A stretch of DNA of 64,000 nucleotides, taken from contig FTLJ01000089.1 of assembly GCA_900155495.1 (NCBI GenBank), positions 1 through 64,000 on the forward strand, in the 5' to 3' direction. Below are positions 22,382 to 63,287 of this stretch, piece after piece. A program made the position numbers and the translations under genes. This stretch comes from Porogramme epimiltina. Taxonomy: Eukaryota > Basidiomycota > Agaricomycetes > Polyporales > Polyporaceae. How positions within the stretch are numbered: the stretch's first letter is position 1; each line of letters starts with the position of its first letter. The notes under the pieces were generated by a model. The model was given only the letters and a program-made list of their open reading frames with translations, did no database searches and was not told the DNA's origin.

Positions 22382-22555
22382 GATACCCTAGCCTGAGCAC
22401 CGGATATTCACGATCGGATCAGCTCCAATCCTCGTGTCGAGTTGTGATGTGAATGTATGCGTTCCGGCAACCTACGTCGAACTTTTGGCGAACTGGTAAA
22501 AGTGGGTCAGTTCCCGGGAGCTCTAGGTTGTCCCCAATGACCAGCGCCTAATTGA

Positions 22556-22565
22556 GATAAGATAA
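22556..22565 (+). repeat. GATAAGATAA repeat, left edge of block A
   Basis: Double GATA motif followed by CGGAGCGGAGCTTAAAT. It is one of ten such sites marking the edges of the array blocks and the HNH gene promoter. Binding by a fungal GATA factor is possible but not shown. Confidence 0.7.
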
Positions 22566-22730
22566 GGGACGTGTCGGAGCGGAGCTTAAATATTGTGAGG
22601 GCCACCGGGGGAGAGATGACCGACGAGCTTCCTCCCCCATCGCGCAAATGTAGGCCCTCAGGCCTCAGGCTTTCAGATGAAAGTTACAAGGCTTCTGGCT
22701 TCACTTTTCTGGTTGATTTGAAGCGCGCAC

Positions 22731-22860
22731 ATGGCTGCCGAGGCTGAACAGGTCGGTTGCTACACTAGCCTCATCCCTAATCGAATGCATTTGTGCTTGT
22801 AGGAGATATCGGTGCGCACAAGAAGAGATACGCCGAGGTCTAGGTGTGCTCGTTGTGACT
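22731..22860 (+). pseudogene. Short relic left of 7TM A (unknown gene)
   Basis: A stretch starting at an ATG (MAAEAEQVG) recurs left of 7TM copies B (31350-31500), C (38285-38410) and D (45715-45855). In D it reads FPLVGDIVKYKKRYEMACKT before a GTGAGG donor-like site; elsewhere it is interrupted by stops. It looks like one exon of an unidentified gene that travelled with the block. Confidence 0.35.
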
Positions 22861-23085
22861 TGACTCTGACCAGTGCTCTCTCAGATATTGAAGTTTGAGC
22901 GAGTACAATGTATGCGTCGTTCTCGGAAAAGCTATATTATATGAACAGTCGTACCTGGACAAGTATTCATATGATCATGTCCGCCGGCGCTACAGCTAGC
23001 CAATCCCCGGATATACCCACTGTGACAGTCCCCTCCCCTATTACTCCAGTACTAGATGATGTCGTCTCTTTCCGAGGACGAGCAA

Positions 23086-24543
23086 TTAGTAGTACGACTG
23101 CAAGCTGGTATAGAGGTGGTCGATCGGCGACTGGTTGATCGTGACAATAACGATGATAGCCATAGGATACATTGCCTGATACGTACCGGGGAATGGCGCA
23201 CGATTTGGTAGGATCGAGAAAACAGCTGTGAATATCCTGCCGTGACAAGTTCAGAAATGAGAAACTCACGACTAGTGGAACGAGGCTACTGAAAACAAAG
23301 TTATCCATGAAGGCAACGTATTTGTCGTCGGCCACTTTGTCCCAACGTCTCAGAGTGATTGCTAGGTATGAAACAACAATGATCTATCGAAAATTAAACG
23401 ATTGCTACGCCTAGTTGGGGGTGATACAGAAAAAAAGCGACGCACCCACAGTAGGCAGTATCCTATCCCGGACTCGACGATGAACATCAACACGCTCACA
23501 GCACGTGCTTGTGCCGTCTGTCCTCCCATTGAGTATTTTTGCATAATACGCCTGTTTGACCTAATGCAAAGATTGTACAAGTATTCTCTATAGTAACCAA
23601 GAAAATTGGCGTACCATGCCTTGTACCCGATAAGGGCCGTAGCGATTACATTCGTAGCCAGAGACAAAACGGCACAAGCCAATCCTATTGGATCATACGC
23701 CAGAGCTTGGGGCCAGTTGTAGTAATCGTTGGACCGCATGGTTGAGTGACCTTGTGGGAAATTCTGGTATGAAGTAACAATGCCCAAAACTTCGAGTCGG
23801 CGATCAGTCACTAACTCTAACAACGAAGAACCTCAGCATCGAGTACCTACCCCCCGTTGTGACAATGAGGACAACCCCTGTGCCCCAGACAAGTTTATCT
23901 TTTGGCCAGATTACGAGTGCCCGCCACCAAACGATTATGTCGCTGATCAGCATCTGAAGGGGAAACTGTCAGCTGCATTTACATAGGATGCGAGACTCCT
24001 CCCCGATAAACGTACATTTACTGTGAGTGTCGCTGCTGTAGCACCCATTTGAATGAATAATAGGTCTACCATTCGATCGAAGTCGTCCGAAACTGAAGAA
24101 GCCTCGGGATTACACAAGTTTGAAGCTGCATCCGAAGTCGTTTTGCTTATCGCCCGATACAGGGATTGAGTGTACCCAAAGTATACACATGTAGAGATGT
24201 ATAACGCCGCTGTAGCAGCTAGTAGGATCCTAACCGAGGGCTGAGCCACTCCTTTACGGCTTTTCAAACGCGTGTTATGATAGTTTCAGAGGAGCGCAAT
24301 GTCAGAACTCACGCGAGGACCAGCGCTGAAACCGCTGCCAGCGCGGAGGTCACTCCTGTATCGCAGTACTCCGTTAGGTGTGTATCTAGGCCTTTGGAAA
24401 TGGAAGAAGCATGACGTACCAAATAAACATGCAGATGCAATGAAATCAGTTGTGTATTCTGACGAGGTTGTGAAATTCTGCAAGAAATACTGTGCACCTG
24501 AGTTGACCCCTTGGGAGCAGTCACCGGTGGGATCACTCGACAT
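23086..24543 (-). CDS. Seven-transmembrane protein, array copy A
   Basis: Eight minus-strand exons: 24543-24420, 24355-24313, 24259-24016, 23953-23851, 23789-23615, 23560-23446, 23383-23270 and 23175-23086, giving 335 residues. Seven hydrophobic helices are visible: around CLFGVTSALAAVSALVLA (1), a second ending ISTCVYFGYTQSL, a third before IVWWRALVIWP, the fourth LVWGTGVVLIVTT, the fifth LACAVLSLATNVIATALIGY, the sixth VSVLMFIVESGIGYCLLW running into the next exon, and the seventh MAIIVIVTINQS. The motifs WWRA..IWP, ATNVIATALIGYK and VESG.GYC mark an Agaricomycete 7TM family with GPCR-like topology; ligand and partner are unknown. The short N-terminus carries a glycosylation sequon (NFT). 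All junctions are consensus GT-AG with no frame break. Confidence 0.8.
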
Positions 24544-25229
24544 GATATAGGTCGGAGCCTACTGGGACAAGTTTTTGGGGATTTCTGAAGGAAGAGGGGG
24601 GGTAACATCGCTCAATACAGACGTGGGTCTTTTATCTTCATGGCCCTGGGTAAGATATCACGTAAAATTATATAATCGCATCATAGAATGGAACCCGCTT
24701 CCTCTGAGAAAATGCCTGTGGGCAACAAGGCCCGGCGTACGGAAAAGGGAATGGACTCAACGAAAGCGCTGTGAACATCAATCACCCCATTGACGTTTCA
24801 CAGCCTTCCTGGTTCGGACCAGTGCCTCAAAACCCTGGGTAGTGAAGGGACGTCCTAGATTCATACGCCTCATCACCGGTGTGGACTGAGCGAAGCACAG
24901 CATGGGTATTCTACGTCTAAGCCGTGTTGGAAACCGCCTTTCAAACGGCGCGGATACTCGCCTAGTCACCGCCTCCAGCACCCGCCGTCAACTCGCCTTC
25001 GCAATCTCTCCGTGTAGATAATCAACGGTTTTACAGTCGCTTACAGCCCGTGAGCAAAAGTTAGCTCGAAGAACAAAGTAAGTCGGTCGTGATGAAAATT
25101 AGAGCTTTTCATTACTGAGGTCACGTCAGACTAACTCCGGGCCCCTAGTCAGTGTCAATGTCCAATCTCCGTGGGTCGTGACATGCGATACTCAGGCAGC
25201 CACTGGGACTAGCTCACCTGCAGCATGGA

Positions 25230-25870
25230 AATTCCGTACGGGCGCCGATATATATATCTCTGTGGTCATTTGTGTCTCTACAGTTGACGTCCGCATTTGA
25301 ATATGAACATGGACAATGACGTTGGATTGTTTAAGGCCTGCAACGGCTCGCTACACAGTGGGTGGCTTATATGCTGTGGCTTTGTGTACGACCCACGTTT
25401 GCCTCAGCATTCTTTGGCATGACTGTAAGCCTATCTACATTAGGACACCGTTAGACGCTAAACTTTCCATGATACCTGCAGCTCATTGATGCACATCCTC
25501 TTCCTCGGTCAAGTTCGACAATCGCACGAGCCCATGACTTGACGTTATCAGACATAGAACAGATACAACAATCAATTTCTATCCGAACTCACTCGTGCAG
25601 AAGGTCCCACACGTCACATCTGCTTCCTCCGGTGGCATGCCGTCTTACGCCTCAGCGGCGTGGCGAAACGAACAAGGCTCTTAGATACTGACATGTGTGG
25701 CAGATTTCACGCAGTGCTTAATGTAGATGCAGCGCCTGTGGCGTCAGTCTCCATGGACAGCATAGGGCGCGGTGAGCCATGGGTTACCGGCGTCCGTCCA
25801 GCAATGTCTACTCCAAGCTATGCCCCGACCGGGGCTTGGGCAAACGTATGCCTGAGTCTATCGTAGGTGA
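25230..25870 (+). pseudogene. Decayed HNH gene copy, block A
   Basis: Plus-strand relic of the gene intact on minus at 58050-60417. The end of its first exon is recognisable (GGGTGGCTTATATGCTGTGG at 25345-25365). Near 25720 a frame reads VDAAPVASVSMDSIGRGE, matching VAPVGVDFMDKVVRGG in the intact protein. Stops and small indels break the frames between. The 3' flank and the inverted nucleoporin tail follow in the order expected of an inverted copy. Confidence 0.6.
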
Positions 25871-26055
25871 CGTCTCTTGATGCGGGGCACCCATTCGTCA
25901 GTCGAAGGTGAATGGAAGATATGGCCTTCAAAAATTACAGTCGACTATAACAACACAGTGTCTTATCCTCTTTCATGCAGCAGCGTTAAACGCGCTTACC
26001 GTATCCAATATCCCGGTCTTTCTACTCGCGCGGCGCGCACACATGACAGCTCCAC

Positions 26056-26330
26056 CGCAACAAGGATCAGAAGAAGGTCCGATGTACCACCTGTCAGACA
26101 CGCGAGGACCGCCCGCCACAACGTGCGCCGAAGTAGTCCACCAGATGGCGCCTAGGTGGCGCCTAGAAGTTGTGCGCCCTGTACCTCGAATCTGCCACGA
26201 CGTTGGTGACGAGCACCCGCGCATGCTTCGGCTTCCTACATACTAAACATTTACGTAAGCTCGGTGTTCTGGAGCAGACGAAGGGAAAGAGGAAATGCGG
26301 CGACCCATGTATTGAGACGCACCATCCCGC
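26056..26330 (-). pseudogene. Inverted 3' tail of the nucleoporin gene, block A
   Basis: On the minus strand this matches the last exon of the Nup84/Nup107 gene (57537-57717) from its acceptor (ATGTAG then GAAGCCGAAGCATGC) through TCGTCACCAACGTCGTGG, CGGTCCTCGCG and GATCCTTGTTGCG at the stop region. Part of the preceding intron (GTGCGT donor near 26322) also matches. Downstream flank similarity continues to about 25870. It contains stops and is not a gene. Confidence 0.75.
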
Positions 26331-26757
26331 TGAGAGGCCAATGCGGCGCAGGTTGAATTTTCTGCATTTTAGATAGCAAGGACGTGGTAGGACATAGGAG
26401 CAACCCACTACGTCACCTATGATATGAGGAAAGTGGGGCCGAGGATATACTGTCGTCGAATGATTCAGCGGCTATCTTCGTGCGTGCCGGTACTACAAAG
26501 TAGCGACTCGGAGCTTTGGCACCAGTGGTGACGGGATTGACTCTCAGGAGTCAGAAGTACTGCCAGCCCGCGCCGTCGCGCAGGAGGTCGAACACCGGCC
26601 CTTCTACATGAGCAAAGTCAATAACCCCTCATAATTATACCTTATTCCAACCGCACTAAACATTAAGGACTTGGTTAAAGTGGGCACATAGAGCTCGAGG
26701 GACTAGGAAGATATCAACTTGGTGGTCGTCATGTGAGACCTCTAGCGCTTAAAACAA

Positions 26758-26767
26758 GATAAGATAA
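26758..26767 (+). repeat. GATAAGATAA repeat, right edge of block A
   Basis: Double GATA motif, preceded by AGCGCTTAAAACAA and followed by GGGCGGGGTTGGAATC, like the other right-edge copies. Confidence 0.7.
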
Positions 26768-27138
26768 CGGGCGGGGTTGGAATCGAGTTAGTCTCGTGAC
26801 CAGACGTTCGGAGCTCGAATCGAGTCAGCGCCGCGGCCGGCAGCACCTGGTGGTGCACGGTGACTTGGAGCGACCACGACTCTTAAAAGCTTCAGTCTCG
26901 ATGCAGTCACTGAAGAGGTGATTGCTAGGCATGAAAGGGGCGAATTGACGCGACCGCACGAGCAGCATGGTCGGGAGTGACATTATGAGGCGTGCGCGTG
27001 AGGCTTCGCCTCTAACATACAGCTGCAGGGTCTACTCAGTGACTGTGTCTTTTGTCGCATGGGCGGCCTCGCGTCCGTTCCTCAGCACCTCCGTTCCCTC
27101 CCTGCCCATCCCGCCGTCGCACCTCGTCCGCTATAGCC

Positions 27139-28593
27139 ATGACAGATTCCCTCTACCCGGCGTGCGCGGAAATCCTCTCGATCTGCTAGGCTAAAAAGGA
27201 CGACCTCGACTCCCTCCTCCACCCCGAGACCGGCTTCGCGCCGAGGCTGCGCGACATATGTATGCTTTCAGGGGCGCGTCTCGCCGCCCGCCGTCCTGTT
27301 CACGCCCTCACTCCCTTCAGGCTCGCAGAACTAGAAAATGACTCACCGGACGGCGACCACCGGTACGAGCTCGAGGCTCTCAAGATGGATAGCGATACCT
27401 GGGTGTTACGAGCTTTTGTCTTTTCGCACGCCTACCCGGACCGCGCCGGGTGGCGCGCCGCGCAGCGCGCGCGCGCGCGCTCCCACGCCCCGCGACGCTC
27501 TGATGGCGGCCCTCGCGCGACCTCGCACGCACCATTCGTAGATACACGCGCTGCTCGCGCTCTTTGTATTTGCCTCGTTGTACTGTACAGTTTATAGTTT
27601 TACAATACTATATAACATTGACGCAGCTGGGGAAGAACCCCAGCTTCGCGTTGGTGCGATTTCCACCAAACCTCGCGCGAGCCCGACACGTGACCGCCCG
27701 CCTTCGGCGGGATTAGTGAGTTTGGACGTATCACTGGGCCCTTCTCCAGGCCCTCGTGTCGTACGTTCCTCCCGCTGCATCCCCCCCCCCCAGCCTCCGA
27801 CCTCATCCTTAGACTACGGAAAACGGCGCTGCCGCAGCATCCCCACCCGCGCGACCCGCTCCAAGACAACCCGTACACGCCTCCCGCCCCTCTCTGCCAG
27901 TCCATCATGCACGCCTTACCCCTCCTCTCCGCCCTCGTCGTCGTCAGAGAGGGGCTGCACGACTCCGCGCCCGGTCCGACCTCGCCTAGCGCGACAAATG
28001 GGTACTAGTGCTTCACGCTGAACGAGGTCTTTCAGGGCAAATACACCGGTAAGGCCGGCGGGGTCGTACAGGAGATGGACCCGGACGCGCAGGAGAGGTC
28101 GGTGGGGCAATAGGGCGGTGGACTGGTACCAGATGATGCAGTGAGTCCTGCTCTTTCTGTCGGGCCTTTCCCCGTTGGACTCGAAGTGTGGAGAGCGAAG
28201 AACGAGAGATGGAACGACCGAAGGAATTGTTGCGGGGGTGGACACATGTGTGCTGGTTAACGCTGATGGGTATGACGCTGATGACGGGCCTACTGTAGGC
28301 ATACGGCGAAACGGTGACTCAGGCACTGTCCGCGCATGTGCGAGCAAGATAGCTCGAAGAGTCCGTCGACCTCCGCCGCGAAGCGAACCAACCATGGCGA
28401 GCAGCGAGCATACACGGCATGCTGCTGTTCCAGTGGTGTGTGATAGGCAAGTACCTCGCGAGCATCGACAAGGTGCATTATTCTGACCCCCCTCACTTAA
28501 TGCAGCGAATGCACCTCAATAAGAGGTCACTGTGGACAATGATGGTGTAGAGTATTCGCAGCGGTGGTACGAGAACGTCCGCAAGGCTTGTAT
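27139..28593 (+). pseudogene. Broken nucleoporin 5' half, unit A, fused to GH28
   Basis: Copy of exons 1-5 of the Nup84/Nup107 gene at 54560. The start MTDSLYPACAEILSIC is followed by a TAG stop where the intact gene has Gln. A solo LTR splits exon 2, and a run of 13 C lies in an intron. Exons 3 and 4 are recognisable, with further stops. The similarity ends inside exon 5, after the GGNVRR-coding region (CGTCCGCAAGG, about 28590), where GH28 intron sequence begins. It is not functional. Confidence 0.8.
27404..27733. mobile_element. Solo LTR (330 bp) in the nucleoporin relic
   Basis: The insertion begins TGTTACGAGC and ends ACGTATCA, the TG...CA ends of a retrotransposon LTR, and is flanked by the 5-bp duplication CTGGG (27399-27403 and 27734-27738). 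It is absent from the other nucleoporin copies at the same point. Inside are a TATA-like ACTATATAA and a perfect stem AGCTGGGG/CCCCAGCT with a 5-base loop. No internal coding region remains, so the element was lost by recombination between its LTRs. Confidence 0.8.
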
Positions 28594-30995
28594 GTCTCTG
28601 CACTCTTTTAAACACCCCCATTCAACCATCCCTCACGTCGTACAACATAGTTCAAGCCCGACATCCAATAATGGCTCGACGCCGCGTACACGTACCACGC
28701 CATCTTCCTCCAGAGTTGGTTCGTCCTCACCGGCCGCGGCTTCACGATCGACGCGCACGGTGAGGGCTGCATCAACGGGAACGGCCAGCCGTGGCAGTCG
28801 TACTTTGCGTGCGTGAGGACGGCGAAGGGCGCCCCATCGCGTTCACCCTGAATAACGTCACGCGCGAGGTCGTGCGCGATCTCAGGATCGAAGCGCAGCT
28901 GCTTTGTTACAACGCTAGGGTATGCCACGGGTCGGGTACGGATATTTTGAGCCTACCCGTACCCGGACCCGGCCTCAACCCGTACCCGCGGGCGACGGGT
29001 ACGGGTTGTGCCCGGGTCCGGGTTATTGTGCCTCGGGTACGGGACACCCGCGGGTATACCCGCGAGTGAAAGTCAGCCCTTGACCGCAACGAGTTCCAGA
29101 AGATCTCCTCCAATGTATGAATAGTGCACAAAGCACCTTATAACAACACCTACAGTCCCTTGTGTACTACTCCATGCTACTACTCTCATAATTGACACTT
29201 TGAATGTGCCAGGTGCTGTCCTCTCTGCTACCCTAGTGCACTCAGGTCTCCGCAGTCCACTCCTCAACGGCGGTAGCACACATTGCTATCGACTCGTCTG
29301 CAATCATGATCTCCAAGAACACGAGCACGGCATGCATCCGCACCCCCTCTCCGTACACACCGACGGCCCCGTCAGCGGCACGAGAAAGTTGCACGACGAC
29401 GGCGCGCTCAGCGCCAACGAGCGCGCGACCGTCTCCGCATCCGTCCAGGCCAAGTTGACACCACGCAGGAGCTCCTTCGCATTCGCTGTGGGCACCCGCG
29501 ATGGCTGCACGTTCCATAGTGCACCCACAGATGCACGGGGCTCAGTGCTGCTGCGTGCGCGAGTTGTGGTACGCGACCGCAGACATACATGCGCCTTCCG
29601 CCCCACGATGGCCACGGCAGCGGCAGCGAAGTCACGGCAGGCCATGGCGCGCGGGGCTGGGGCATGACGGGGAGGTGAACGATGAATACCCTTCCCTTGT
29701 CCTCGATCGAGTACGTGCGTTGTGGGAGTCATCGATAGGCAACGCACGTGACAAACCCGTATACCCGCCTCGCGGGTACGGGTTTGGCCAGGGTACGTCC
29801 CCATGAACCCGTACCCGCACCCGGGCGGGTATATACCCGTACCCGCGGCGGGTTTACCCGACCCGTGGCATGCCCTATACAACGCTGACGCGGACTCGCG
29901 GGACGTGCTGTATGACGGGATGTATTGCAACGCGACGAACCAGGACCCGACATTTATTGGCCAGAAGTGAGAGCGTGGAGTATTGTGGAGCGTGCGTCGT
30001 GCTGACTCTACTCGGTGTTTAGCGTGGTTCCCAATACGGATGGTACGAGAGTTCTAATTGAGATCGGATGCGGAAGTTGATCTCTGCGCTCCCAGGTATC
30101 GACACGTACAGGTCTGACAAGATCATACTGCTCAACTGGGACGTGAGTTCTGCCGCTTCACATGTCCTCCGAAGAAGTCATGCTCATTCCTTTTCAGATC
30201 ACCTGCGAAGACGACTGTCTTGCGTTCAAGGGGTATGCGTCTCATCTTGGCGCCCTCGACATCTCGGAACTCACTCGTATCCGGAACTCAACCAACGTCT
30301 ACTCAAAGGGCATAAAATGGCGTGGCGGAAATGGTATTGCGATCGGATCTCTCGGGCAATACGTAGGCATGGTGAGTCTTGACGCCATAAGCCAGGAGTG
30401 CTTGACGTTCATATCCACACTCTCAGCCTGATATCGTCGACCATTGTGACTATCGAGGACGCCGAGGTACACTTACAGCCTGTCTTTAGCCCTGTGTCAG
30501 TTCGCTGATGCACGTTTCCTTGGCTTGCAGATGATTCGTCTGGACCCCAAGGTTCAGCTGAACATGGTCAACGGTGTGTACTTCAAGACGTTGACAGGCA
30601 GCGTGAATGGTGTGCCGCCGACTGGTGGAGGGGGTGCTGGAGGTACCCTCGCTCGCTCGTCTGTCTGGTCGGCGCACGCTCATTCATAGCGACTAGGTTA
30701 CGTTTCGAACGTCGTCTTGAAAAATATCTCATTGGACAACCCTACGGTCCCCGTACATGTATACCGGACGAATGGAGGCCACACGTGGGTACCAAGTCTC
30801 GTGTTCAGTAACCTCTCGTTCATCGATTGGAGAGGTACGTCTCAACGCAGCACTCGTGAACACTGAGCTTCCGATTTTATCTCTTTCCGTAACGCTGAAC
30901 CGGCTCCACATTTAATCGTGAACATCAGATGCAGTGCAAACGCACCGTGCCCTAATATGATGTTTGAGGAATTTTCTGTTCTACCTGAGACATCC
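28594..30995 (+). pseudogene. Broken GH28 copy B, split by a hAT-like element
   Basis: Matches the intact GH28 gene from the end of intron 3 (AACATAG then TTCAAGCCCGACATCC) to exon 13. Defects are a TAA in place of TAC in exon 4 (IQ*WLD), a deletion after the FLQS codons, a 962-bp transposon in exon 4 and loss of the gene end after the FEEFSVLP region. Exons 5-12 are well preserved. The 5' exons and signal peptide are replaced by nucleoporin sequence. Confidence 0.85.
28916..29877. mobile_element. hAT-like non-autonomous DNA transposon 1
   Basis: The element is 962 bp, bounded by 8-bp target duplications TACAACGC (28908-28915 and 29878-29885). It has about 23-bp terminal inverted repeats starting TAGGGTATGCCACGGGTC (left) and TAGGGCATGCCACGGGTC (right, reverse complement). 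Multiple ACCCGTACCCG subterminal repeats lie in both orientations. The 8-bp duplication and TAGGG ends fit the hAT superfamily. No transposase is present. The GC-rich interior (29200-29670) carries frames related in part to the ORF in element 2, but interrupted. Confidence 0.85.
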
Positions 30996-31193
30996 TAGCC
31001 CTGGTAGACGCGCTTGAGCATGTAGCCGTTATCCACGACGGGGATGGCGCCGTCCCTCTTATTTAAATGAAATATGAACTTCTGCGTGCAGCCGACAACC
31101 GTAGAGTTCGTAGTACGCACCAACTGGTGAGATCGAGTCGGGCACCCGGAGTCCCGGACACGAAATTGTCACCAGTTGCCGGCGCCTAACGCA

Positions 31194-31203
31194 GATAAGA
31201 TAA
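31194..31203 (+). repeat. GATAAGATAA repeat, left edge of block B
   Basis: Preceded by CGCCTAACGCA and followed by TGGCGAATCGGAGTTTGAAT, closely matching the HNH promoter copy at 60491 in reverse. Confidence 0.7.
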
Positions 31204-31730
31204 TGGCGAATCGGAGTTTGAATGGTGTATGAAAGATAATCGTCAAGTCGCCCCTGAGCATATGTCGTGTCCCTTTCCTGTCGCGGGAACGCGGACCCTT
31301 CCGACGAAAATCTTAGAGCTCCTAGCTTCACTGCCCATGTCTTTATCTGCCCATCTTAATGGCTTACTTGGCCGCCGAGGGGAGCTCGGTTACTGGCCTG
31401 GCCTTGTCTTCGGTTGAACGCGCTCGCGGGAGATATCGTTGTGTTCAAGTGGCGGGAAGAGATATAGGGGTCAAAGGCGCGTGCGAGACGGTGAGCGCAT
31501 CTAGGTGTGCTTTTCATGACGCTAATGTGACAGGTTTCTGTTCAGAGGCTCACGCTCTAGTATGTATGCCGGATGCGTCGTTTTCGAAGAAGCTACATTA
31601 TATGTACATTCGGCAAGTGTCCATATCATGTCCGTCACGGCCCCGGATATCCCGATTCCCCACTGTGACATACTCCTCCTTCCTATCTCTCCAGTGCTGT
31701 ACTACTCATTTTCTTTCAGAGGACTTGAAA

Positions 31731-33230
31731 TTAGTACGACTGCAAGCTCAAGCTGGTGCAGAGATGATCGATCGGGGATTGGTTGACGGTGACAATAACG
31801 ATGATAGCCATAGGATATATCGCCTGTCGGTAAGGTCAAAAAAGGTTCGTAAGATAGCCATGGAACTCCTGATATAGCTACTTTTATGAATGATAAACTT
31901 ACAATGAGTGGGACTAGGCTTCCGAAGACAAAGTTCTCCATGAAGAAGATGTATTTGCTGTCGGTGATGGTCAACGTGTCCAAAGGTTTCAGAGTGATTC
32001 CTACGTATGAAACAACTATTATCTATTAAATATTAAACCGTTAATACTATCAGTCGGTAGGTGATTGCAGAGAGAAAGCGACGCACCCACAGCAGGCAAT
32101 ATCCTACCCCCGACTCGACGATGAACATCATCACCCTCACAGCACGCGTCTGCGCCATCTTTCCTATTACTTGGTATTCTTGCATAATGCGCCTGTGTAT
32201 CCTGGGTACGAATTCCTGGAGTATGAGATGTTTACTATAGCAACCGAAGATATATATTGTCATACCATGCCTTGTACCCGATGAGAGCCGTGGCGATCAC
32301 ATTTGTAGCTAGAGACAAAACAGCGCAAGCTACTCCGATCGGATCGTATGCCATCGTTTTAGGAGTATGAAACCCGTTGCTATCACTGCCATTGGGTGGT
32401 ACGGTGGAATAGCCTTGTGGAAAGTTCTGGTATGTAGTAACAATGCCTAAAACTATGGGCTAACGCTTAGTCATTGACAACCAACGTCATCTTCAGCATC
32501 GATAACCCACCTCCCGTTGTGACAATGAGAACAACCCCTATGCGCCAGACAAGTCTATTGCCCGGCCAAATGGCCAGTGCTCGCCACCAGACGATCATGT
32601 CGCTGATCAGCATCTGGGATGTGGATGTGAAGCCGAAATTATCAACTGCATACCCACAGGATGAAACCCCTCCTAAATAAACGCACATTCACTGTGAGTG
32701 TTGCCGCCGTAGCACCCATTTGAGCAATTTCTATCTTGTCTAGCCGTACGATATCATGGTGAAGCGAATTATCGAGATTGAGTACAGTAGAAGCTGCATA
32801 CGCCGCAGTATTGTTCATCGTCCAATATAGGGTTTGAATGTACCCAAAGTATACACATGTCGAAATGTATAGCGCCACTATAGCAGCTAGCAAGATCCGA
32901 ACTGAAGATTGGGCTACTCCTTTATTGCTATTGGAGCACATCTTATGATATTAGATGGTTTCTGCTGAGGAGTGCGATTACAAAGCTTACACGAGGAGGA
33001 GGGCTGATATCGCAGCCAGCGTAGAGACCACCCCTGTGTCGGAGCATTCCACTTTTAGGTATGTATATGGTCAAACTTCGAAGAAAGTAAGACCCACCAA
33101 ATAAGCATGAAGATGCAATAACATCAGCGGTATATCTGAGTGAGGAACTGGAGTAGAAAGTCTGCAAGAAATCCAATGCAGTCCATTCGAGGAGGCAGGT
33201 AGCGCCGGGGACACCCGACTCCCTTGACAT
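31731..33230 (-). CDS. Seven-transmembrane protein, array copy B
   Basis: Eight minus-strand exons: 33230-33098, 33033-32991, 32927-32687, 32613-32511, 32452-32266, 32201-32087, 32022-31903 and 31823-31731, giving 344 residues without frame breaks. Helix motifs match copy A: IVWWRALAIWP, ATNVIATALIGYK, FIVESGVGYCLLW. Differences from A include the N-terminus (MSRESGVPGATC), the loop after helix 2 (LDNSLHHDIVRLDK, with sequon NNT before it) and two extra codons near the end (TSLSLQSY). The exon 3 acceptor has drifted, so the usual RKG reads NKG. Intron lengths and phases match the other copies. Confidence 0.8.
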
Positions 33231-33829
33231 GGTATAGGTCGGAGCCTGTTGGGAGAGTCTACGGAGGAGGATTGGGGTAACCACGTTCCTCACTTGATAC
33301 AGGCGTGGTTCTTTTATCTTCCGTGGTGGGAGAATACGTAAGGGCACACGCTCGCGTCATAGAAATCTGTTGACACAGCATTCTCTGGACCCTACAGAAC
33401 CTCCCCAAAAGTATCAAGGTTACTTGGTATACGGGAAAGGCAACAGACTCATAGAAAGCGCTGTGAAACCCTTTACCATCCCTATCTCGGACCGGCCCCG
33501 AAAGTGAAGGAACGTTCTTGGTGACTCACTCGGCGCTCATCAGCGATGTGGGCGGAATGAAACCATGACCATGCCACGCCGAAGACGCGTTTTAAAACGC
33601 CTTCCAAAGGGCCCACATTATGCACGATACTAACCTAGTCACCAGCGGAATTTGCAACGGTGACCCTAGTCAACCAGTCCTTATAATCTCTACGCTCAGA
33701 CCGACATTGAGTTGACAACCTCTTATAGCTTGCGCGTCGAATTTCTCAATAAAGCTTAATCTCTTGAAGTTCCAGTAGCTAGATATGTCAGTCACCCATG
33801 GCGGTGTTTGGAATTTGAAATCTGACCAT

Positions 33830-42532: not shown

Positions 42533-42547
42533 TAGATGTTGCGCATC

Positions 42548-52291: not shown

Positions 52292-53482
52292 TAGGCCATA
52301 ACGCGGGTCGGGTAAACCCGCAGCGGGTGCGGGTAAGGGTGCCTAGTGAGAGACCCGCGGTATACCCGTACCCGTACGTGCGGGTAGTGGGGCGACACGC
52401 GGGTACCGGCAGCACTTACTCAACGTTCCAGGGCAGCTCGATGGCAGGAGTCGTCGAATCTGTGCGCACGCGAGCTCCATCGTCTCCAAGAGCATCCGCG
52501 CGACATCCTACCCCGCCCGCTACTTCTCCGTCGCCCTCCTCTCCCAGTCTCCAACCCAGCCCCACAAATACCTCGACCACCTTGCTCGCACGCCCGCCGC
52601 CTCCCCAATCACAGCCCGCCCGTGCATCCTGCACCTCTACATCCCCTCTGTCATGCACCATCGTCCACTCCCGTGCTCAGACCGGGACCCGGCTGCAAGG
52701 GCGAGAGAAAGAACTAGAACACGCGTACTACGGGCACTTCGCGGCTCGGAGCTCGGACTCACACAAATGCAGGGGCACCTCACGCTCACCGCGCCAGACC
52801 TCCGCACACTCACCGCGCTCGCGCACGGGCACCACGGCAAGTGCAGGCGCATGCCCGAGCTCACGTTTCCGCCGCACGTCGCGTGCGCACCCCCGTCTTG
52901 CCGTGCCTCCGCGAGCCCACTGTCGCTGGGCATGTGCTCGCATCCGAACCCGGGGAGCTCGGGGGAAGTTGGGGGCGCTGGTAAGATGAGGGCGATGGTT
53001 GCGGCGGCGGTTGCGGCGGCTGCGGCGGCTGCGGCGGCGGCTGCGGGGATGCTGTTCCCGGCGCCGGCGCGCGTGCACTTGAAGTTTGTACTGGTGTTGA
53101 CGGTGCCGGGGCAGAACTTGGAGCTGTAGGGGTGGGCCGTGCGCAAGCCTGGATCCATGCACCTCGTGTCCATGACACCATCGCAGCTGCCTGCCACTCC
53201 CTCAACAGCGTCATCTTAATCCGCCGCAACACAATGACAAGCGCAAAGGGTACGAGGAGCATATGTTTGAGCAGCTCGTGAATGGGCCCCCGATGGTCAT
53301 GCGAACCGTGTATGACACTCTACCAACTTAACCTGTGGGTACTATTCACGGGTGCACCCGTAGCACGCACATTATCACCCGTACCCGTAGAGATCCGTAC
53401 CCTTGAACGCGGGTAGAAAACCCGTGCGGGACAGGTAAGGGTAGACCTAAATCTACCCGTACCCGACCCATGTTATGCCCTA
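52292..53482. mobile_element. hAT-like DNA transposon 2 with internal ORF
   Basis: The element is 1191 bp with 23-bp terminal inverted repeats of the same family as element 1 (TAGGCCATAACGCGGGTCGG on the left, TAGGGCATAACATGGGTCGG on the right in reverse), and dense ACCCGTACCCG subterminal repeats. The 8-base flanks (ATCATAGC and AGATTCGT) do not match, so the target duplication has decayed or the element was rearranged. The interior is GC-rich and carries an open frame, not a recognisable transposase. Confidence 0.78.
52440..53129 (+). CDS. Intronless ORF carried by hAT-like element 2
   Basis: A frame open for about 229 codons with no certain start; it reads SKSIRATSYPARYFSVALLS early on and ends FVLVLTVPGQNLEL. 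A polyalanine tract (GCG/GCT repeats, about 53000-53045) lies near the C-terminus. The first part resembles, with frameshifts, sequence inside element 1 (AACGTTCCAGG versus AATGTGCCAGG), so it belongs to the element family and was not captured separately here. Function unknown; it may be a decayed gene. Confidence 0.35.
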   Translation, partial: DGRSRRICAHASSIVSKSIRATSYPARYFSVALLSQSPTQPHKYLDHLARTPAASPITARPCILHLYIPSVMHHRPLPCSDRDPAARARERTRTRVLRALRGSELGLTQMQGHLTLTAPDLRTLTALAHGHHGKCRRMPELTFPPHVACAPPSCRASASPLSLGMCSHPNPGSSGEVGGAGKMRAMVAAAVAAAAAAAAAAAGMLFPAPARVHLKFVLVLTVPGQNLEL

Positions 53483-54055: not shown

Positions 54056-54559
54056 ACGGCCGTAGCGGCGGAGATAGAATGCTGTGTTGGGGAGATAGTC
54101 AGCGCTCAGAGCGACCTTGGTGACTCTCGATGCAACCCCCAACGAGGTGATTGAGCTCAACGCCCTTCATTGGTCCATATAGAAGGTTTTAGAGGCCGTA
54201 GAGCACCACCGAGCGTAAATTCTTCAAGTGAAGGCGTCACTGAGACAAGCACTCTCCCCAGTTGTGTCTAGACTATATAGTCTGCGCGAGACATGAACGA
54301 GACGAATTCATGTGAACCACACTGGAGAACACCAAACCAAAACTGAGAGTGACACCATTACGTTTCGGACAGGCCTGCCTCCAAGTACGAGGTGCTCAAA
54401 AGTCGACGCTCACGCAGACGCCGAGGAGCACTCCGCCACCGACGCGTCGTGGAAGCGCCCGAACACTTGCCTTGTCTTTTGTCGCGTGGGCGGCCTCGCG
54501 GTCCGCTCCTCTCCCCTTCCTCCCTGCCCGTCCTCCGTCGTACCCTCTCCGCCACAACC

Positions 54560-57500
54560 ATGACAGACTCCCTTTATGCGGCGTGCGCGCAAGTACTCTC
54601 GGTCTGCCAAGCCACCAAAGAAGATCTCGACACCCTCCTCCACCCCGAGACCGGCTTCGCGCCGAGGTTGCGGGATATATGCTTTCAGGAGTGCGTCTCG
54701 CCGCACCCCGTCCTGTTCGCGCGCTCATCCTCCTCAGGCTTGAAGAACTACAAAAGCACCGGCCGGACGGCGTCCACCGGTACGAGCTCGAGGCTCTCAA
54801 GATGGAGAGCGACACCTGGGGACTTCTCCAGGCTCTCATGTCGTGAGTTCCTCCCACTGCCCCCCTTCCCAGCCACCAACCGCCTCCTTAGACTACGAAA
54901 AACGACGCCCCCGCAGTATCCCAACCCGCGCGAGCTGCTCCAAGACAACCCTTACACGCCCCCCGCCACCCTCGTCCAATCCATCATGCACGCTTCGCCC
55001 GTCCTCTCCACCCTCGTAGTCGTGCGGGAATGGCTGCACGAATCTGCGCCCGACCCGACTGCGCCTGGCGCGACGAATGGGTACTGGCGCTTTACGCGGA
55101 ATGCGGTCCTCCAAGGCAAGCGTACCGGGAAGGCTGGCGGGGTTGTGGAGGAGATGGATCCGGACGCGCCGGAGAGGTCGGCGGGGCAGGAGGGTGGTGG
55201 GCTGGTGCCTGATGACGCGGTGAGCTCTCTTTCTCTTCAGTGGGTGGACTTTTCCCTCGGCCGGCTGCAAGTATGGAGAATGGAGGGCGGAATATGGCTG
55301 GGCGAAGGGCCGCTGCGGGGGAGGAGAGACGGGTGCCGGCTCTCACTGCTGGGTATGACGCTGACGATGGGTCTACCATAGGCGTACGACAAGGCGGTAA
55401 CGCAGGCACTGTATGCGCACGTACGAGCAGGACAGCTCGGAGCGGCCGTCGACCTCTGCCGGGAAGTGAACCAACCATGGCGGGCGGCGAGCATACGCGG
55501 CTCGCTGCTGTTCCAGTGGCGCGCGATAGGTGAGTGCCTGATGGGCATTGAGAAGGTGCGTTGTCCTGATCTTCCACGCTTTCTGCAGCGAATGAACCTC
55601 GGGAAGACGATGTTATGGACGACGGCGCAGAAGACTCTCCTCAGTGGAGCGGGAATGTCCGCAGGAAGATGTGGAAGTCCGTCTGTCAGCGCGGTGCGCT
55701 CAACGTACGTTCCGTCGTTGTCTCCCCCTTACCTCACAGGCCTCACTCATCCCCCGGGACGCCTTCAGACCACGCTACCCCCTACTGAACGCGCACTATA
55801 TGCCGCCCTCGCACCGACCGCATCGACATCCGTCGTGCTCAAGTCTGCCTCCCGGACGTGGGAGGACCACCTCTGGGCGCTCGTGAGCGTTGCGTGCGAG
55901 GAGCGGCTAAGTCGGGGGCTGGCGAGCATCGCGCGTGAGTGCTTCTGGGAGGGCGGGCTCGGTGCGTTGGAGAGCGGGAACGCGGACGAGGAGGGCGGAG
56001 AGGGGTCTGTGGGTGTGGAGGACGAGGAAGCGTGGGAGGACGAGGTCATACAGACGCTGCAGGAGCTCGCGGGCGCGCAGGTTGCGGAGGGGTGAGTGCT
56101 AGCTCGTATTTTCAGTGCGCGGGGTGCTGATAGGGAGGATAGTGCGCCGGCGGACCACCCGTACCACGTCTCGCAGCTGCATATCATTCTAAATCAGACA
56201 GACTCTCTGCTGGAGTCGTTCGCAAGCGGGCTCCAAGAGGGCTTGTATGTCTCCGCCCCGGAGTGAGTGTCCCCGTCCGGAGATTGTGGTTTTATGCTGA
56301 CGCGGAGCAGGTACCCGACGATGACGCGCTTTTTCGCCCACCTGTGTCTGTTCTTCCAGATGATCGACATTCCTGTGTCTCCCTTTGCGACCCAGATCAT
56401 CCTCGAAGCATACCTCCAGGTTCTCGAGGTGCGCCTACCTATAGCACACCTCTTTCCAACACTTAGCTTTACCCTCATTGCAGAACGCAGGACAGCGCGA
56501 GCTGATCGCCATGTACGCGGGTGCGCTGGGCGACAACGCAGTGGAGCGCTACGCGATGTTCCTGACGTCCCTCGAGCTCGCGGGCGACGCGAAAGAGCGC
56601 CGGCTTGCGCTTGCGCGCGCGCACGAGCACGGGCTGGACGTTGAGCGCGTCGCGGTCGTCACTGCTGAGCGCACGATCGAGAAGACCTTCGGGGTGCGTC
56701 CCCCTCCCTCCTTTCGTTCTCTACGAAGCGATGTTAAATGACGTCCGGGCAGATCCTCCCACCTGCGAAGGGCACACTGCCTGTGCTTTTGTCGGTAGAG
56801 CCACCCCCAACGGACGCGGAGTGGCTGCTCGTGCGCTCGATCGAGTGGACGACGTTCTTCGAGGCGACGTACGACACCGCGCTCGAGCAGGCGAACGTCA
56901 TCCTCCGCTACTTCCTCGGTGCGTCCGTCGCCTCCCCCTCGCCACTTCTCATTCGCTGACACTATATATGCGTATGATACAGGCCGCGGGCGCGTACACG
57001 TCGCGAAGGGCGTGCTGGAGATGCTGCCCCCGGAGCTCGGCGCGCTGCAGGACCCGGTGGAGGAGGCGACGGAGCTCCTGCACTACCGCCTGTTCTTCGC
57101 CGTGTGGGACGCGCTCGCGCGCGCGCAGGAGTGCGCGGCGCTCGAGCAGCCGCAGATGAACAAGGAGTCGCGCGCGTCGTGGCTCGCCGACTACAGGGTC
57201 TGTCGCTCTCCGTCTTTCTCTCTGTCTTCCGTCTGATGCTGATGCACGAGGATACTTTGCACAGACGCTCATCGAGCAGGCGCGCGAGCAGGTCTTGAAG
57301 CTGCTCACGACGGACTGGCTCGTGCTCGACCTGCCACGTGGCGGGGAGCGCAGGCGGCGGGACCTCGCGCGCATCCGCCAGATCTACGTCCCCGAGCTCG
57401 TTCTGCGCCTCCATTTTCTGCTCGTGGGCTCGCGCAACCGCATACCCGAGTGCGTGTCCTTCCTTCCTTCTTCTCCCCTTGCTTTGTTCCTGCCCCCTTG

Positions 57501-57717
57501 TTCCGGAACGTCGAGCTGATGTTGTTGGGCATGCAGGAACGTGAAGCACGCACTGGCGCTCGTCAACGTCGTGGCGGACTCGAGGTATAGGGTGTACGAC
57601 GACTTCTCGGCGCAGCCTGGGCGCCGGCTGGGCGACTACTTGGGCGCGGTGCGGCAGGCGGTCCTCGCGGGCTTGGAGGGCGGCGGGTCGGACCCGTTCC
57701 GGATCCTTGTTGCGTGA
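54560..57717 (+). CDS. NUP84: Nuclear pore protein Nup84/Nup107
   Basis: Thirteen exons: 54560-54690, 54738-54842, 54892-55219, 55382-55529, 55589-55704, 55769-56091, 56134-56262, 56311-56428, 56484-56693, 56753-56918, 56983-57197, 57265-57449 and 57537-57717, giving 784 residues, near the usual fungal length. Nup84 is an alpha-helical scaffold of the Y-shaped complex on both faces of the nuclear pore. Family features are YAHVRAGQLGAAVDLCREVN followed by QPWRAASIRG, FQMIDIPVS, and NAGQRELIAMYAGALGDNAV. The last exon (ALALVNVVADSRY) is typical of the C-terminus. This is the only full copy; 5' halves are duplicated in the array and 3' tails are found inverted. The exon 1 donor was chosen to keep the LEELQKHRPDG helix. 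Confidence 0.88.
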
Positions 57718-58049: not shown

Positions 58050-60417
58050 CTACAAGCCCCTCGGCGGCGAGTCCGACGCGAACATCGCGGCGACAGACGC
58101 CGCCAACTCGGCCGCTTCCCATGCGCCCCCGCGCACTACCTTGTCCATGAAGTCCACCCCAACAGGGGCTACACTGATGCCTGCCGCCCCTCCAGCTCCG
58201 CCGCACTCCTCACCTAAGAGTTCCAAAAGCCCGGCCGCGCCGCTCAGGTGTAAAACGTGTCCGATCGCGGCATGCAAGCGGAGTAGGTCCTTGCGTGGTA
58301 GTGCGATACCAGTCTCGCTGTGGTCGACGAAGCTGACGTGCGTATGGCCTTCGGGTTGCCCTATGAGCGCGTTATTGGGAAAGCTGGGCATAAGACAGAT
58401 CTTGTATCTGTTGTCGATCTATCCACATGAGGTGGGTATGAGCACTGGATTTGATCAAGGGAGAGATAACGTACCTCCGTGGGTTGCAAGCACCACTCAA
58501 AGATGTCAAAACCTTCACGTGAATAGGAATTCACGTATATGCCGTTCTCGGGCATGTCTATGGCATGTACGATCTCGTCTAGAGACCCTTCTAGTTGGCA
58601 ATAGTGTCTCAGGATGTCATACGTGGCGCGTCTGGACGCCGTCTGTACCATGTCAACAAAGCAAACCTGCACCCGGATGAAACTGACGCACCTTAGCTTC
58701 ATTGACATCATCTTCCCAAACAACAGCTACACGTTTGAAGATGTGCGCTGTGTTCATATGGGCTTTTTTGCGCACTTCGCCACCAGCGTTGAGTTTGTCT
58801 ACGTATCCCTTTGGAGCGCTTCGGTCTAATGCTCCGGTGAAGCAGCAAGTGTACCCATCGCGTCGGGCGACCTGAGAGTCGGAGATGTGAGCACTAAGCG
58901 ACGTGTAAGGCGAAGAAAACCTCACCGACGATCTGAAATCGCAACGTCGCGGCGTCAGGTCACTAGATGAGTGTTCTGAGGTTGTATCCTGTACTGTGGG
59001 GGTCTTTGCGTCTAATATGTCTTCGTATTCTTGGAGTTTACGCAATATAGATGTTTTTACAACTTGACGAGAAAGGCGAGCGTCAGCGACTGTGTGTGGC
59101 TCGTATTGTGGGTAATAAATAGATATCCACTGGAAACAGGAGGTTGGAGCAGAATCAACAAGCTGGCATGTCGGTGTTGCGGTCCTCCCTTACATATATC
59201 ACAATACAAGTATATGGTGGAAGTTCCAAGAAGTGAGGAAACTCACAAGCAGGGAAGTCGACCAAATCACAAGTCAGAAAACTCGCAAGTGGAAAAAACT
59301 CGCAAGTTGGAAAAGTTGCAAGTGGAAAAGTCGCAAGCTGACTAGTCGCACGTTCCGAAAGAAGAATAATGTGAGGGCGCCGTTCTGGGGGCGTCCAGGC
59401 TCACGCCTAAGGGCTCCACTAGTCTCAATCAAAGTTCTCGGGAGGACAGCTTACTCGCGGGCGATAGACTAGTACTCAAACTAAGAGCTCCCCTCGTTCT
59501 CTAGTACCACCACTATCCATTCATTTTAGAGACACTCTAGGATAGTCGCTTTTGACACCAGTGATAATCCGCAAGTTTCCTGACTTCCGCATTCCCCCGA
59601 CTTGTACAAGTTTCTCCACTTGCAAGTTTTCGCACCTGCGAGTTTTTGTGCTTGCAAGATTGGATACCTCCAAGTTTTCTTACTTGTGATCATGAGTATC
59701 CCACTTGCGAGTTTTGTGCCTGCGGGCTTTCGTGCATGCGAGTTTTTTACCTGTGAGTTTTTGTACCTACGAGATTTCTTCCCGAGGCCCAGGAGCCGAC
59801 CCAAACATGGGAGTTTCGACGCCTTCTGAGGCAGCTTGCGACTTTTTATTTTTTACCCTAAATACGTGCCATAACTGTGGACTGGAGGAGGACGCTCGGA
59901 ACTCACAAGGCCAAAGCATATAAGCCACCCAGGTCGTTGCCAGCTGCTCAAGGGCGTTGGCGAGTGCGTTCCGTCTAGCGTTCTTGTCTTCGAATAACGC
60001 ATCAGCTTTGAGTGCGGAGGCATAAGTAACTGCAGAGACGTATCGCTGCGCGGCAGAAGGGAGCCCACAGGACTCGGCGGAGGTGTACATGGCCTCGAAC
60101 ATCTTACGAGTTGTGTAGTTGTCCTTGAGCTCAAATCTCCTAGCGATGACCGCCAGATCTTCGAGACGCGAGACCCAGGTGGGTTTATTCCGGAGCCTAT
60201 AGTCATTGCTGTCAAGAATCTTCAGCGCCTTGTTGGCTTCGGCACGGAGATAGGGGTCCGAGAAGCGCTCCGTGTCTTTGATGATCTCCAAGAATTCATC
60301 CTCGTCGTACGGGAGTTGGGTGGCGGTGTCAAAGCCAGATATTTCTTCAGAGGAAATGCTAGAGTCCACCGCAATGCCTACCCCCGTGTCGACGCTGGAG
60401 GGGTGACTGCAAGACAT
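58050..60417 (-). CDS. HNH endonuclease domain protein
   Basis: Five minus-strand exons: 60417-59907, 59089-58926, 58871-58692, 58642-58475 and 58418-58050, giving 463 residues with continuous phases. The N-terminal half is helical, without known domain. Around residues 225-275 lies an HNH_2-type motif: RRDGYTCCFTGALD, then AHMNTAHIFKR, with the first Cys as possible zinc ligand. The C-terminal part (LLRLHAAIGHVLHLSGAAG) is typical of the large Agaricomycete family of HNH proteins, whose function is unknown. Intron 1 is 817 bp and holds a foldback element. It converges with the nucleoporin gene, and the stops are 333 bp apart. The promoter carries the GATA repeat. An earlier in-frame ATG at 60483 would add 22 residues. 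Confidence 0.75.
59226..59785. mobile_element. Foldback element with inverted minisatellite arms
   Basis: The left arm (59226-59350) is an imperfect tandem repeat of a unit like AAAACTCGCAAGTGG. The right arm (59567-59785) is the same repeat in the opposite orientation (CACTTGCGAGTTTT). About 215 bases of unrelated sequence lie between. Arms of this kind form a large hairpin and are typical of foldback or Helitron-independent MITE-like insertions. It lies wholly within intron 1 of the HNH gene. No target duplication was identified by eye. Confidence 0.65.
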
Positions 60418-60490
60418 GGTGGGCGAAGGAAACAATTCAGACGCCCGAAGATGGGCTTGACGGCATTCAAACTCCGACGCCACGAGCCCA

Positions 60491-60500
60491 TTATCTTATC
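60491..60500 (-). promoter_or_regulatory. GATAAGATAA motif in the HNH gene promoter
   Basis: On the minus strand the double GATA site lies about 75 bases upstream of the start codon, followed by GTCGGAGTTTGAATGCCG. It matches the sequence next to the block-edge motifs, so those probably began as copies of this promoter. A GATA-type regulator is a reasonable guess. Confidence 0.55.
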
Positions 60501-61820
60501 TGCGATTAAACGCCCAAGATATCTCGCAACGTTGAGGGGTCCTCACTCTTGTATACTTCATTTCTACCACTGTTTTAGTATGTTGCACGGGAATAAGCGC
60601 AGTACTTATAGCCTGTAATGGTGAACTCAGAACCATTGCGGCCTCTCCTGGACAGCTCGTCCTCAGCCTGCCCTACTGCTGCGCCCAGCAGCCTGCCAGC
60701 AAAGTGCTACTTGTTAACTTGACAGCAAACCTCTACCCACGCCTCGCCGGGCACTGAACTGTTCATAGTCTACCCAAGCAGGATACAGATCCAAATCAAC
60801 TTTGTAGCGACAATTCCCACTTCTCCACGCTCGTCTCCTCTGAAGCTCCAAGACGCCTGCAGTAACTTGACGTTGGATGCCACCAAAGTAAGTATGCACT
60901 ATGCTCTTCCGCTCAGGCCGCCGGCACTATCGTGTGATCAACGAAGGCTGTCCATGTATCCATTGTGAAGGTTTAAAACTAGTCATATCACAGCTCCAAG
61001 TGCATTGCCCCGGCTCCTTTTTACGTACAGCCCATGCGCTGAAGATGCTTCCTTGAACATCGGAAGGCCTGGAGAGCGGCTCCGGAGTCCAGACCAGTAG
61101 TCGTTGCCGAAATTTCGAGGAAAGTGACCAAGAGTTTTCGCTTCTAAGTCCATTTCTTTCTTCAACCTCTGGAGGTCTCATTACTCATATCACTGTTAGG
61201 AAGTTATTGTACTCTGCTGCGAACCGCCAAGGCTTATTCTGCGCTTAACTGGGTCACTGCCTCATTTTTGAGGCCTAGCAGGCGCTCCGCGTGTACACCG
61301 GTTTCTATTTCATATTGCTTCTTTATGTCAAGAGAGGCACTCGTCGCTCAGTTGCACTGCGTCAGTCTCACGGCTCCCGCGCTCATCTGCGTAACCTTTG
61401 TGAGGTCACATCCAGGGTGCAGTCTTCCATTCCATAAGGAACCCGTCAAAGCCACCAGACCGCGCGCCTTGAATTCGACCAGTGCATTCAGTACCGGTGT
61501 CCGTACACCCCCGACACTGGAACGACTGGTTGGCAGTGATAACGATTTTCTTCGAGGAGCAGTTCTCGTTGACAGGTGCTCTGCTGTTTTAGGGGTCAAT
61601 GAACTTTGTCGTGCGGCAGGCGCGCGCTTACCCAATTTATGTCTCACAAATCACATCTGTCGAACTTGGTTTGGATGGGGAGCACCGGAGCCAATCGCCT
61701 ATATACGTGATCCCAGATAATGTAGTATAAACACTGCATGTGCCAACGCAACAAGGTGTTAAACATCCTTCACTTCTTCTGCGCCCCCGCTAGAATCTAA
61801 CATCACAGCCCTCTGACTAC
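60501..61820. other. Intergenic region between HNH and 7TM F
   Basis: About 1.3 kb. The open frame at 61268-61720 ends with CSAVLGVNE, faintly like the GACAVLGVN relic of block C, but no other HNH feature is seen. No gene is supported. The last part is the 7TM F promoter. Confidence 0.35.
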
Positions 61821-63287
61821 ATGATTCTAAATACCCCCAGCGCAAACTGTTCTCAAGACATCAATTTTATTTCGTATGACTTTTTGTCAGAACTCGACTA
61901 CTACCGTAGCTTAGGGGGAATGAGCGTGGTGAGCTCCACAGCAGGGTCATGTTTGTTTGGTGAGTTGTGCCTCCCCAGTTACTCTAGCTTCAGCAGCATG
62001 CTAATGAGATGTCATGGGTTAGGAATATTATCTATCCTGACGGCAATCTCAATCACCTTCCTAATGTAAGTCCAAAGTCCAAACTTCTATAAACCAAACC
62101 AACACCGTCTTTGTTCTTATTAGTCGCAAAGGAATAGCTCTACGCTCGGTCCAAATACTTCTCATGGCTACGATCACCCTCTACGTATCAACAAGCGTGA
62201 ACCTCGTCTACAAGCAATCACTGTATCCCTTATTGGACCAGACAACTGCGGAAGCATGGAATACTTTGTTTTCTATCAACGATTCTTCATTTGGAGATGC
62301 TTTGGTGCGATTAGGAGATAGGATGTCCTCGCAAGCCGGTGCCATGACTGCAACCCTCTCAGTAAACGTAGGTAGGTTTATAGCAGGGAGGTCTATCCCT
62401 TGGTAACACTCTACTCCCCAGATGCTCGTCAGCGACGCAATTGTTTGGTGGCGGGCAACAGTAATATGGAAAAGGAACAAACACATTTTGGGAATAGGTG
62501 TTGTTCTCCTCGTTACTACTGGGGGTAAGTTGTTTTTATTGCGGTCACAATAATTCAACGTGCCTCATGGGTAGTTTCCCGGGATCCCTCACAGCTCTAG
62601 GTATCACTACTGCGTACCAAAATCTCCCTCAGGGCTATACGAGCTTGCCGTCATATGCCGATAATCTACCCAGTGCCCCGAGAGGCATGGCATATGATCC
62701 GATCGGGGTCGCATGTGTTGTTATATCGTTGATCACAAATATCGCCGCCACGGGGCTGATAGCATATAAGACCTGGTATATTTCTTCTTCCATCCTTAAT
62801 GAATATTTCAAGAGCATTTGCTTCAGGGTACATAGGTGTACCATGAAACACCATCAAGTGGGGGGGAAGGTGATGCAATCGCGTGCTCTGAGTACGCTAA
62901 TGCTCATTGTCGAGTCGGGTGTCGGATATTGTTTTCTCTGGGCAAGTATTCTCCCTGCGTCCCCCACACACTCAAAGCTTATCTCTTGATTTACTTACTA
63001 CCAGATGGTTATTGTTTCATATGCTGGGATATCCCTCAAAACCGGTTCCCAAACCTACATCGAGACCAAGTACATTGGTTTCATGAATAACTTCGTATCT
63101 GGATGCCTTATTCCACTCATTGTGAGCATATTTCCGTCTATTTACCTTGCATAATCGCCAAGATATCATACACTGATCTTTGACTGGCGTGCACTAGGCT
63201 ATATATCCCATGGCTATCATTGTCATTGTCGCGGTGAACCAATCACCAATCGACCACCTCTACTCTAGTGTCCCACATTCTAACTGA
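61821..63287 (+). CDS. Seven-transmembrane protein F, divergent copy
   Basis: Eight exons: 61821-61959, 62023-62065, 62124-62367, 62422-62524, 62595-62775, 62827-62941, 63005-63121 and 63198-63287, giving 343 residues. Exon lengths and phases match copies A-E, but the sequence is clearly more diverged: IVWWRATVIWK, ITNIAATGLIAYK, LIVESGVGYCFLW, MAIIVIVAVNQS. Seven helices are visible. The sixth intron starts with GCAAGT, a GC-AG intron where the others have GTGCGT. It lies in the opposite orientation to the array and next to the intact HNH gene, so it marks the source arrangement. Ligand and partner unknown. Confidence 0.82.

Follow-up and report, generated by a model that had tools for sequence, protein, structure and literature searches.

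Receptor genes can evolve in birth-and-death clusters, as in the odorant receptor or Pth11-type families. We describe here a tandem array in the polypore Porogramme epimiltina, contained in bases 1-64000 (the window) of contig FTLJ01000089.1 (C70; 100136 bases, in a genome of 41.9 Mb and 926 contigs). In this array, intact genes for predicted seven-transmembrane (7TM) proteins alternate with pieces of the nucleoporin gene Nup84/Nup107 fused to pieces of a gene for a pectinase-type glycosyl hydrolase 28 (GH28). As in birth-and-death receptor clusters, the 7TM copies are in tandem and intact, with a ratio of nonsynonymous to synonymous distance (Ka/Ks, or w) well below 1 and a star-like divergence. 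Unlike in such clusters, each 7TM unit drags along fragments of other genes, and the family is without a Pfam name.

In Drosophila yakuba, tandem duplications give birth to chimeric genes (Rogers et al. 2017, PMC5460883). There, the duplications are polymorphic and expression data exist; the present locus differs from the system presented there by its four-unit array, by the decay of all three chimeras, and by an inverted arm within the unit. A second point of comparison is provided by the DUF6534 proteins of Agaricomycotina, candidate G protein-coupled receptors (GPCRs) predicted to have seven helices, most sequences of which occur in Polyporales, Agaricales, and Boletales (PMC12842992). The 7TM family described here is likewise predicted to be seven-helix and is present in Polyporales. 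In contrast to those proteins, it does not correspond to DUF6534 (PF20152), since none of the 75 matches listed at E 0.1 is on C70 or on C199 and C232, the other contigs with modeled 7TM copies.

The anatomy of the locus is probably explained by a tandem duplication that broke within two genes, together with birth and death of the 7TM genes. A mechanism of this type is already known. The locus would constitute a multi-copy record of it, in which duplication breakpoints inside two unrelated genes amplify a receptor-like gene and leave hybrid fragments; these fragments adjoin a nucleoporin gene found whole only once in the genome. The 7TM family of Polyporaceae is a candidate for ligand sensing. 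Among the open-licence papers listed in literature searches, no title concerns the C70 locus or a Nup84-GH28 fusion.

Four units between two complete parent genes

All results below concern the genome sequence alone, with exon coordinates derived by comparing copies. The array spans 22.4-54.4 kb of the window. The order, from left to right, is the complete GH28 gene, block A, the chimera n1::g1, block B, n2::g2, block C, n3::g3, blocks D and E, an element with terminal inverted repeats (TIR), the complete Nup84 gene, an HNH-type gene, and a further 7TM gene, F62. This makes four units and three chimeras, bracketed by the two complete parent genes. Self-comparison delimits block A at 22383..27045 (4663 bp), B at 30975..36142 (5168 bp), C at 37880..43045 (5166 bp), D at 45371..50106 (4736 bp), and E, which is partial and contains only a 7TM gene, at 50107..52234 (2128 bp); a preliminary description of the locus had given 4.1-4.4 kb per block. 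Blocks A-D follow each other in the same order and on the same strand, with Nup84 5′ and GH28 sequence in between, a head-to-tail repetition of one unit. A minus-strand 7TM gene is present in all five blocks, and in four of the five (A-D) it is accompanied by a plus-strand HNH-gene remnant and an inverted, minus-strand Nup84 tail. The Nup84 5′ half, GH28, and block A give 4, 5, and 11 forward hits, whereas the reversed-sequence controls give 0, 0, and 0; the reversed right arm also gives 0 hits in self-comparison. The copies in the array differ by 16-28% in DNA.

The observations of the preliminary description are thereby confirmed in part: the collinear repeats, their order, the content of the blocks, and the fusion of Nup84 5′ halves to GH28 at all three inter-block junctions are recovered. 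The GATA-type motifs proposed as block boundaries are not, with the nearest WGATAR lying 78-615 bases from the eight block edges for a mean spacing of 496 bases (129 sites in the window). To that description we add the intactness of all modeled 7TM copies, the extension of the cluster beyond the window, and the presence of the chimera joint on other contigs.

The left parent, the complete GH28 gene (20361..22382, plus strand; exons and splice sites identified by visual inspection), has a match to PF00295 in exon 4 (Pfam, E 1.5e-6) and its intact branch has w 0.00-0.15 in six three-way comparisons. The right parent, complete Nup84 (54473..57717, plus strand, coding sequence from 54560; PF04121), is the only full copy found (54560-57717) in a family search of the genome that gave eight matches, all on C70. 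In tblastn it is covered over 780 of 782 residues of an Epithele protein and 782 of 784 of another relative; over its first 262 residues, identity to the first eight homologues listed (from Epithele, Ganoderma, Dichomitus, Earliella, Trametes, and Daedaleopsis) is 71-74%, which suggests a polypore near these genera. Its inverted 3′ tails, all on the minus strand, are at 26056..26276 in block A (72% to 57499-57714), 35116..35281 in B and 41961..42086 in C (both by tblastn and DNA match), and 49218..49418 in D (71% to 57523-57727).

The chimeras are on the plus strand and all three are broken today. At the first junction (J1), n1, a decayed Nup84 5′ half (27046..28583; five in-frame stops and an insertion at 27404-27731), is joined to g1, a decayed GH28 3′ part (28584..30974). 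At J2, n2 (36143..37144), a frameshifted Nup84 5′ part, precedes the GH28 3′ exons of g2 (37145..37879). At J3, n3 (43046..44269), a 5′ half with a lost start codon, two in-frame stops, and a 10-bp deletion, precedes g3 (44270..45370), a GH28 3′ part with an internal deletion. J1 and J3 have the same joint: by local alignment, the Nup84 part ends at 55663-55665 and the GH28 part starts at 20757 (J1) or 20741 (J3), inside intron 3 and just before exon 4 at 20778. J2 instead connects Nup84 position 55419 to GH28 position 21653. The reading frame across the joint depends on the donor, GTTTGT being in frame and GTATGT out of frame (J3, by eye). The fragments n1-n3 differ by 16-21% and form with the intact gene one clade, separate from ten other Nup84 proteins, so that the copies arose in this lineage. 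Among 120 of the 162 Nup84 homologues listed, with fusion candidates taken as proteins within 0.55-1.75 of the query length, all precomputed domain entries are PF04121 alone, so that the idea of a Nup84-GH28 fusion in other fungi was set aside within that sample.

The joint letters of J1 and J3 recur, in a multiple alignment, on contigs C553 and C781, and a segment on C168 aligns only from immediately right of the joint. These dispersed chimera or chimera-adjacent pseudogenes are at 5971-7099 (C553), 2139-3031 (C781), and 2445-4584 (C168). C781, C168, C559, and C879 have in common a leading block of ~2.1 kb, which makes the dispersed copies part of a larger segment that was duplicated.

Selection on the fragments was assessed by simulating neutral evolution under the local substitution pattern (400 runs per pair); the median w of these runs is 0.76-0.92, or 0.50-0.68 with fivefold CpG weighting. 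Since these medians are below 1, bootstrap P values against w = 1 for the Nup84 and GH28 comparisons are too optimistic. The simulation replaced a codon-model likelihood test of w = 1, which was discarded because out-of-frame controls departed equally (Nup84 frame+2, P 1.5e-9 vs. 1.4e-8 in frame). For GH28 exons 5-13, w is 0.20 (g1-g2), 0.27 (g1-g3), and 0.34 (g2-g3), values reached by 0, 0, and 1 of 400 runs (P 0, 0, 0.0025), and with CpG weighting P is 0, 0.0025, and 0.0225. With w below the neutral simulation, the GH28 part of the array copies thus remained coding for some time once the copies had separated. Between g1 and the C553 copy, the same exons give w 0.37 (P 0.01, or 0.0725 with CpG weighting). 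No constraint is detected in GH28 exon 4 beside the joint (three pairs) or among the dispersed copies themselves (three pairs), with P 0.19-0.76. Past purifying selection on the Nup84 halves is weakly indicated: w is 0.44, 0.59, and 0.47 (n1-n2, n1-n3, n2-n3) against neutral medians of 0.88-0.92 (0.67-0.68 when CpG sites are weighted), and the simulated P values are 0.0025, 0.03, and 0.0025 without and 0.04, 0.28, and 0.075 with CpG weighting.

The 7TM genes

The five block genes are on the minus strand: A (23086..24543; eight exons, 335 aa), B (31731..33230; 344 aa), C (38648..40099; 332 aa), D (46089..47566; 341 aa), and E (50251..51784; 348 aa). F62 (61821..63287; 343 aa) is on the plus strand. 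All are intact and are not debris. With four genes further along C70 (G65, H69, I71, J77) and three on other contigs (C199, one; C232, two), the set modeled comprises 13 copies (exon limits transferred from copy A, start codons set manually for D, F62, and G65). All 13 have open models of 332-351 residues with an identical eight-exon layout; the splice-site exceptions are a GC donor in one intron of F62 and a GG acceptor in G65. The cluster, described as ending at 63.3 kb, continues on the same contig with those four intact plus-strand genes (64508-77402) and a repeated unit of ~5.5 kb, which has 64-85% matches on C232 and C199. More distant relatives are on other contigs (51 matches listed, several per gene).

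Comparisons between the block genes A-E give a Ks of 0.51-0.64, a Ka of 0.19-0.27, and a w of 0.29-0.44; their introns are 63-72% identical, with Kimura two-parameter (K2P) distances of 0.36-0.54. In unrooted codon and protein trees, A-E split from all other copies with support 100, and F62 pairs with H69 (94 and 95). The K2P distance to the block genes is 0.66-0.73 for F62 vs. 0.54-0.57 for the 71-kb and 77-kb copies. Because trees and distances place F62 apart, the block 7TM genes are not supported as copies of the 62-kb arm.

A simple hydropathy scan gives seven hydrophobic peaks in 12 of the 13 copies and eight in C232a. The predicted structure of a Ganoderma homologue looks GPCR-like, with Ste2 as its best VIA structural match, and among the matches listed in the fold comparison are GPCRs and one designed GPCR-like protein. 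A two-sequence structure model had a predicted local distance difference test (pLDDT) score of 47 and was not used. Searched against PDB sequences, the 7TM profile gave no match at E 1. An identity with STE3 (PF02076) was rejected: the 18 genome matches are all on contig C92 and none is on C70, and neither protein A nor protein C232a matches it in Pfam scans. The STE3 pheromone receptor genes are clustered at C92 72270-107963, likely the B mating-type locus. Named homologues of the 7TM family come only from Ganoderma, Dichomitus, and Epithele. In Ganoderma adspersum, several members have neighboring locus tags, and clustering is therefore usual for the family. These data point to a GPCR-like family without a Pfam name in Polyporaceae, the members of which may be receptors.

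Origin of the array

Three chimeras, with the complete parents only at the ends, fit a tandem duplication whose breakpoints fell within two genes. The starting point would be a Polyporaceae locus with GH28, an inverted arm (7TM on the minus, HNH on the plus, and Nup84 tail on the minus strand), followed by Nup84. Duplicated in tandem, the segment between GH28 intron 3 and Nup84 exon 5 would add, with each unit, one intact 7TM gene and a Nup84 5′ half joined to a GH28 3′ half, and the left and right ends would keep the whole GH28 and the whole Nup84, respectively. The number of units would then have risen to four by non-allelic recombination between them. Later events would be a larger loss of sequence at J2, the deletion within GH28 at J3, the TIR insertion in g1, and the extra 7TM copy E beside D. 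Selection would keep the 7TM genes, as in a birth-and-death cluster, and the Nup84, HNH, and GH28 pieces would be decayed passengers. The inverted arm is found in each of the four full blocks and thus probably predates the duplication of the unit. The interpretation in the preliminary description is, thus, supported in part. Of the proposal that the blocks are an inverted copy of the 54.5-63.3 kb arm, the Nup84 tails and HNH remnants stand, since they match the arm, but the 7TM part does not, F62 not being the closest relative. As regards the proposed inversion followed by unequal crossing-over, a tandem duplication of a unit with a pre-existing inverted arm agrees with the anatomy, but the J2 breakpoint differs from that of J1 and J3.

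Several observations weigh against such an origin. The distinct J2 breakpoint leaves a single founding joint for all three chimeras unproven. Synonymous distances are uneven along the unit (0.51-0.64 for 7TM, 0.45-0.70 for GH28 exons 10-13, 0.28-0.33 for the Nup84 halves), as are noncoding identities (63-72% in 7TM introns vs. 76-83% in Nup84 and 74-79% in GH28 fragments), which is not expected from a single clock; it could equally reflect gene conversion, constraint in the past, or duplication in two rounds. Past selection on GH28 exons 5-13 is unexpected in copies born broken. Lastly, Foldseek gave no match under E 0.001 for the 7TM structure model. The selection on GH28 exons after the fragments parted would be better accommodated if each unit once had complete GH28 and Nup84 genes, with later deletions making the chimeras and gene conversion or unequal exchange spreading the J1/J3 joint. 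The distinct J2 breakpoint, the greater synonymous distance away from the joint, and a J1-J3 identity slightly raised near it (0.840 of 400 bases within 200 of the joint vs. 0.793 of 1613, P 0.035) go in the same direction. However, at none of the three junctions is there a plus-strand match to the middle or 3′ exons of Nup84 or a match to GH28 exons 1-3 (E 1e-3), and the identical joint on C553 and C781 demands yet more spreading. An origin from whole-gene units is, for us, unlikely.

It is rather doubtful, too, that the joint founded a chimeric gene once read as protein, copies of which spread to other contigs before the family died. A functional translated chimera is possible but not favored, because exon 4 of GH28 is unconstrained (46 codons for g1-g3) where constraint is expected. 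The fragmented assembly (926 contigs) invites the question of misjoined or duplicated contig pieces. But the array copies are 16-28% apart, which makes collapsed or duplicated reads an unlikely source, they have their own indels and insertions and intact 7TM exons, and the Ganoderma adspersum genes have neighboring locus tags; an artefact is very improbable. Tandem seven-helix receptor-like genes in a basidiomycete, with Ste2 as best VIA structural match, also recall a B mating-type (pheromone receptor) locus, yet the STE3 genes sit on C92, and this identification, scarcely credible, is rejected. A tandem duplication with breakpoints inside GH28 and Nup84 is, thus, the origin we retain as likely.

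HNH-type gene, mobile elements, and other features

The HNH-type gene of the right arm (58051..60495, minus strand) has a contiguous relative on C330. It had been described as intact at 58-60.5 kb, but it is split by a dispersed repeat of ~780 bp (about 59095-59873), up to 94% identical to copies on other contigs. The chained C330 copy matches HNH_2 (PF13391) at 17.4 bits vs. a cut-off of 21, and the right-arm pieces are without HNH match; the label HNH, taken from this sub-threshold match and an HNH-type motif, is our assumption. The remnants in the blocks are all on the plus strand, at 25251..25819 in A (tblastn at 25251-25385 and 25627-25782, DNA match to the other blocks) and, by DNA match, at 34445..34853 in B, 41193..41664 in C, and 48588..48870 in D.

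The TIR element in g1 (28916..29877, ~960 bp, plus strand) has 23-bp arms that begin with TAGGG and are 96% complementary, flanked by the 8-bp repeat TACAACGC, and relatives of its ends are on many contigs. On the basis of the TAGGG arms and the 8-bp target repeat, it is presumably hAT-like. The element between block E and Nup84 (52292..53482) has ends similar to those of the g1 element and 23-bp arms that are 87% complementary, with no clear target repeat. There is no tRNA in the window that could suggest a tRNA-linked insertion. Outside the array, a second tandem pair is present at 6842-8092 and 8731-10051 of the window, 69% identical over ~1.3 kb.
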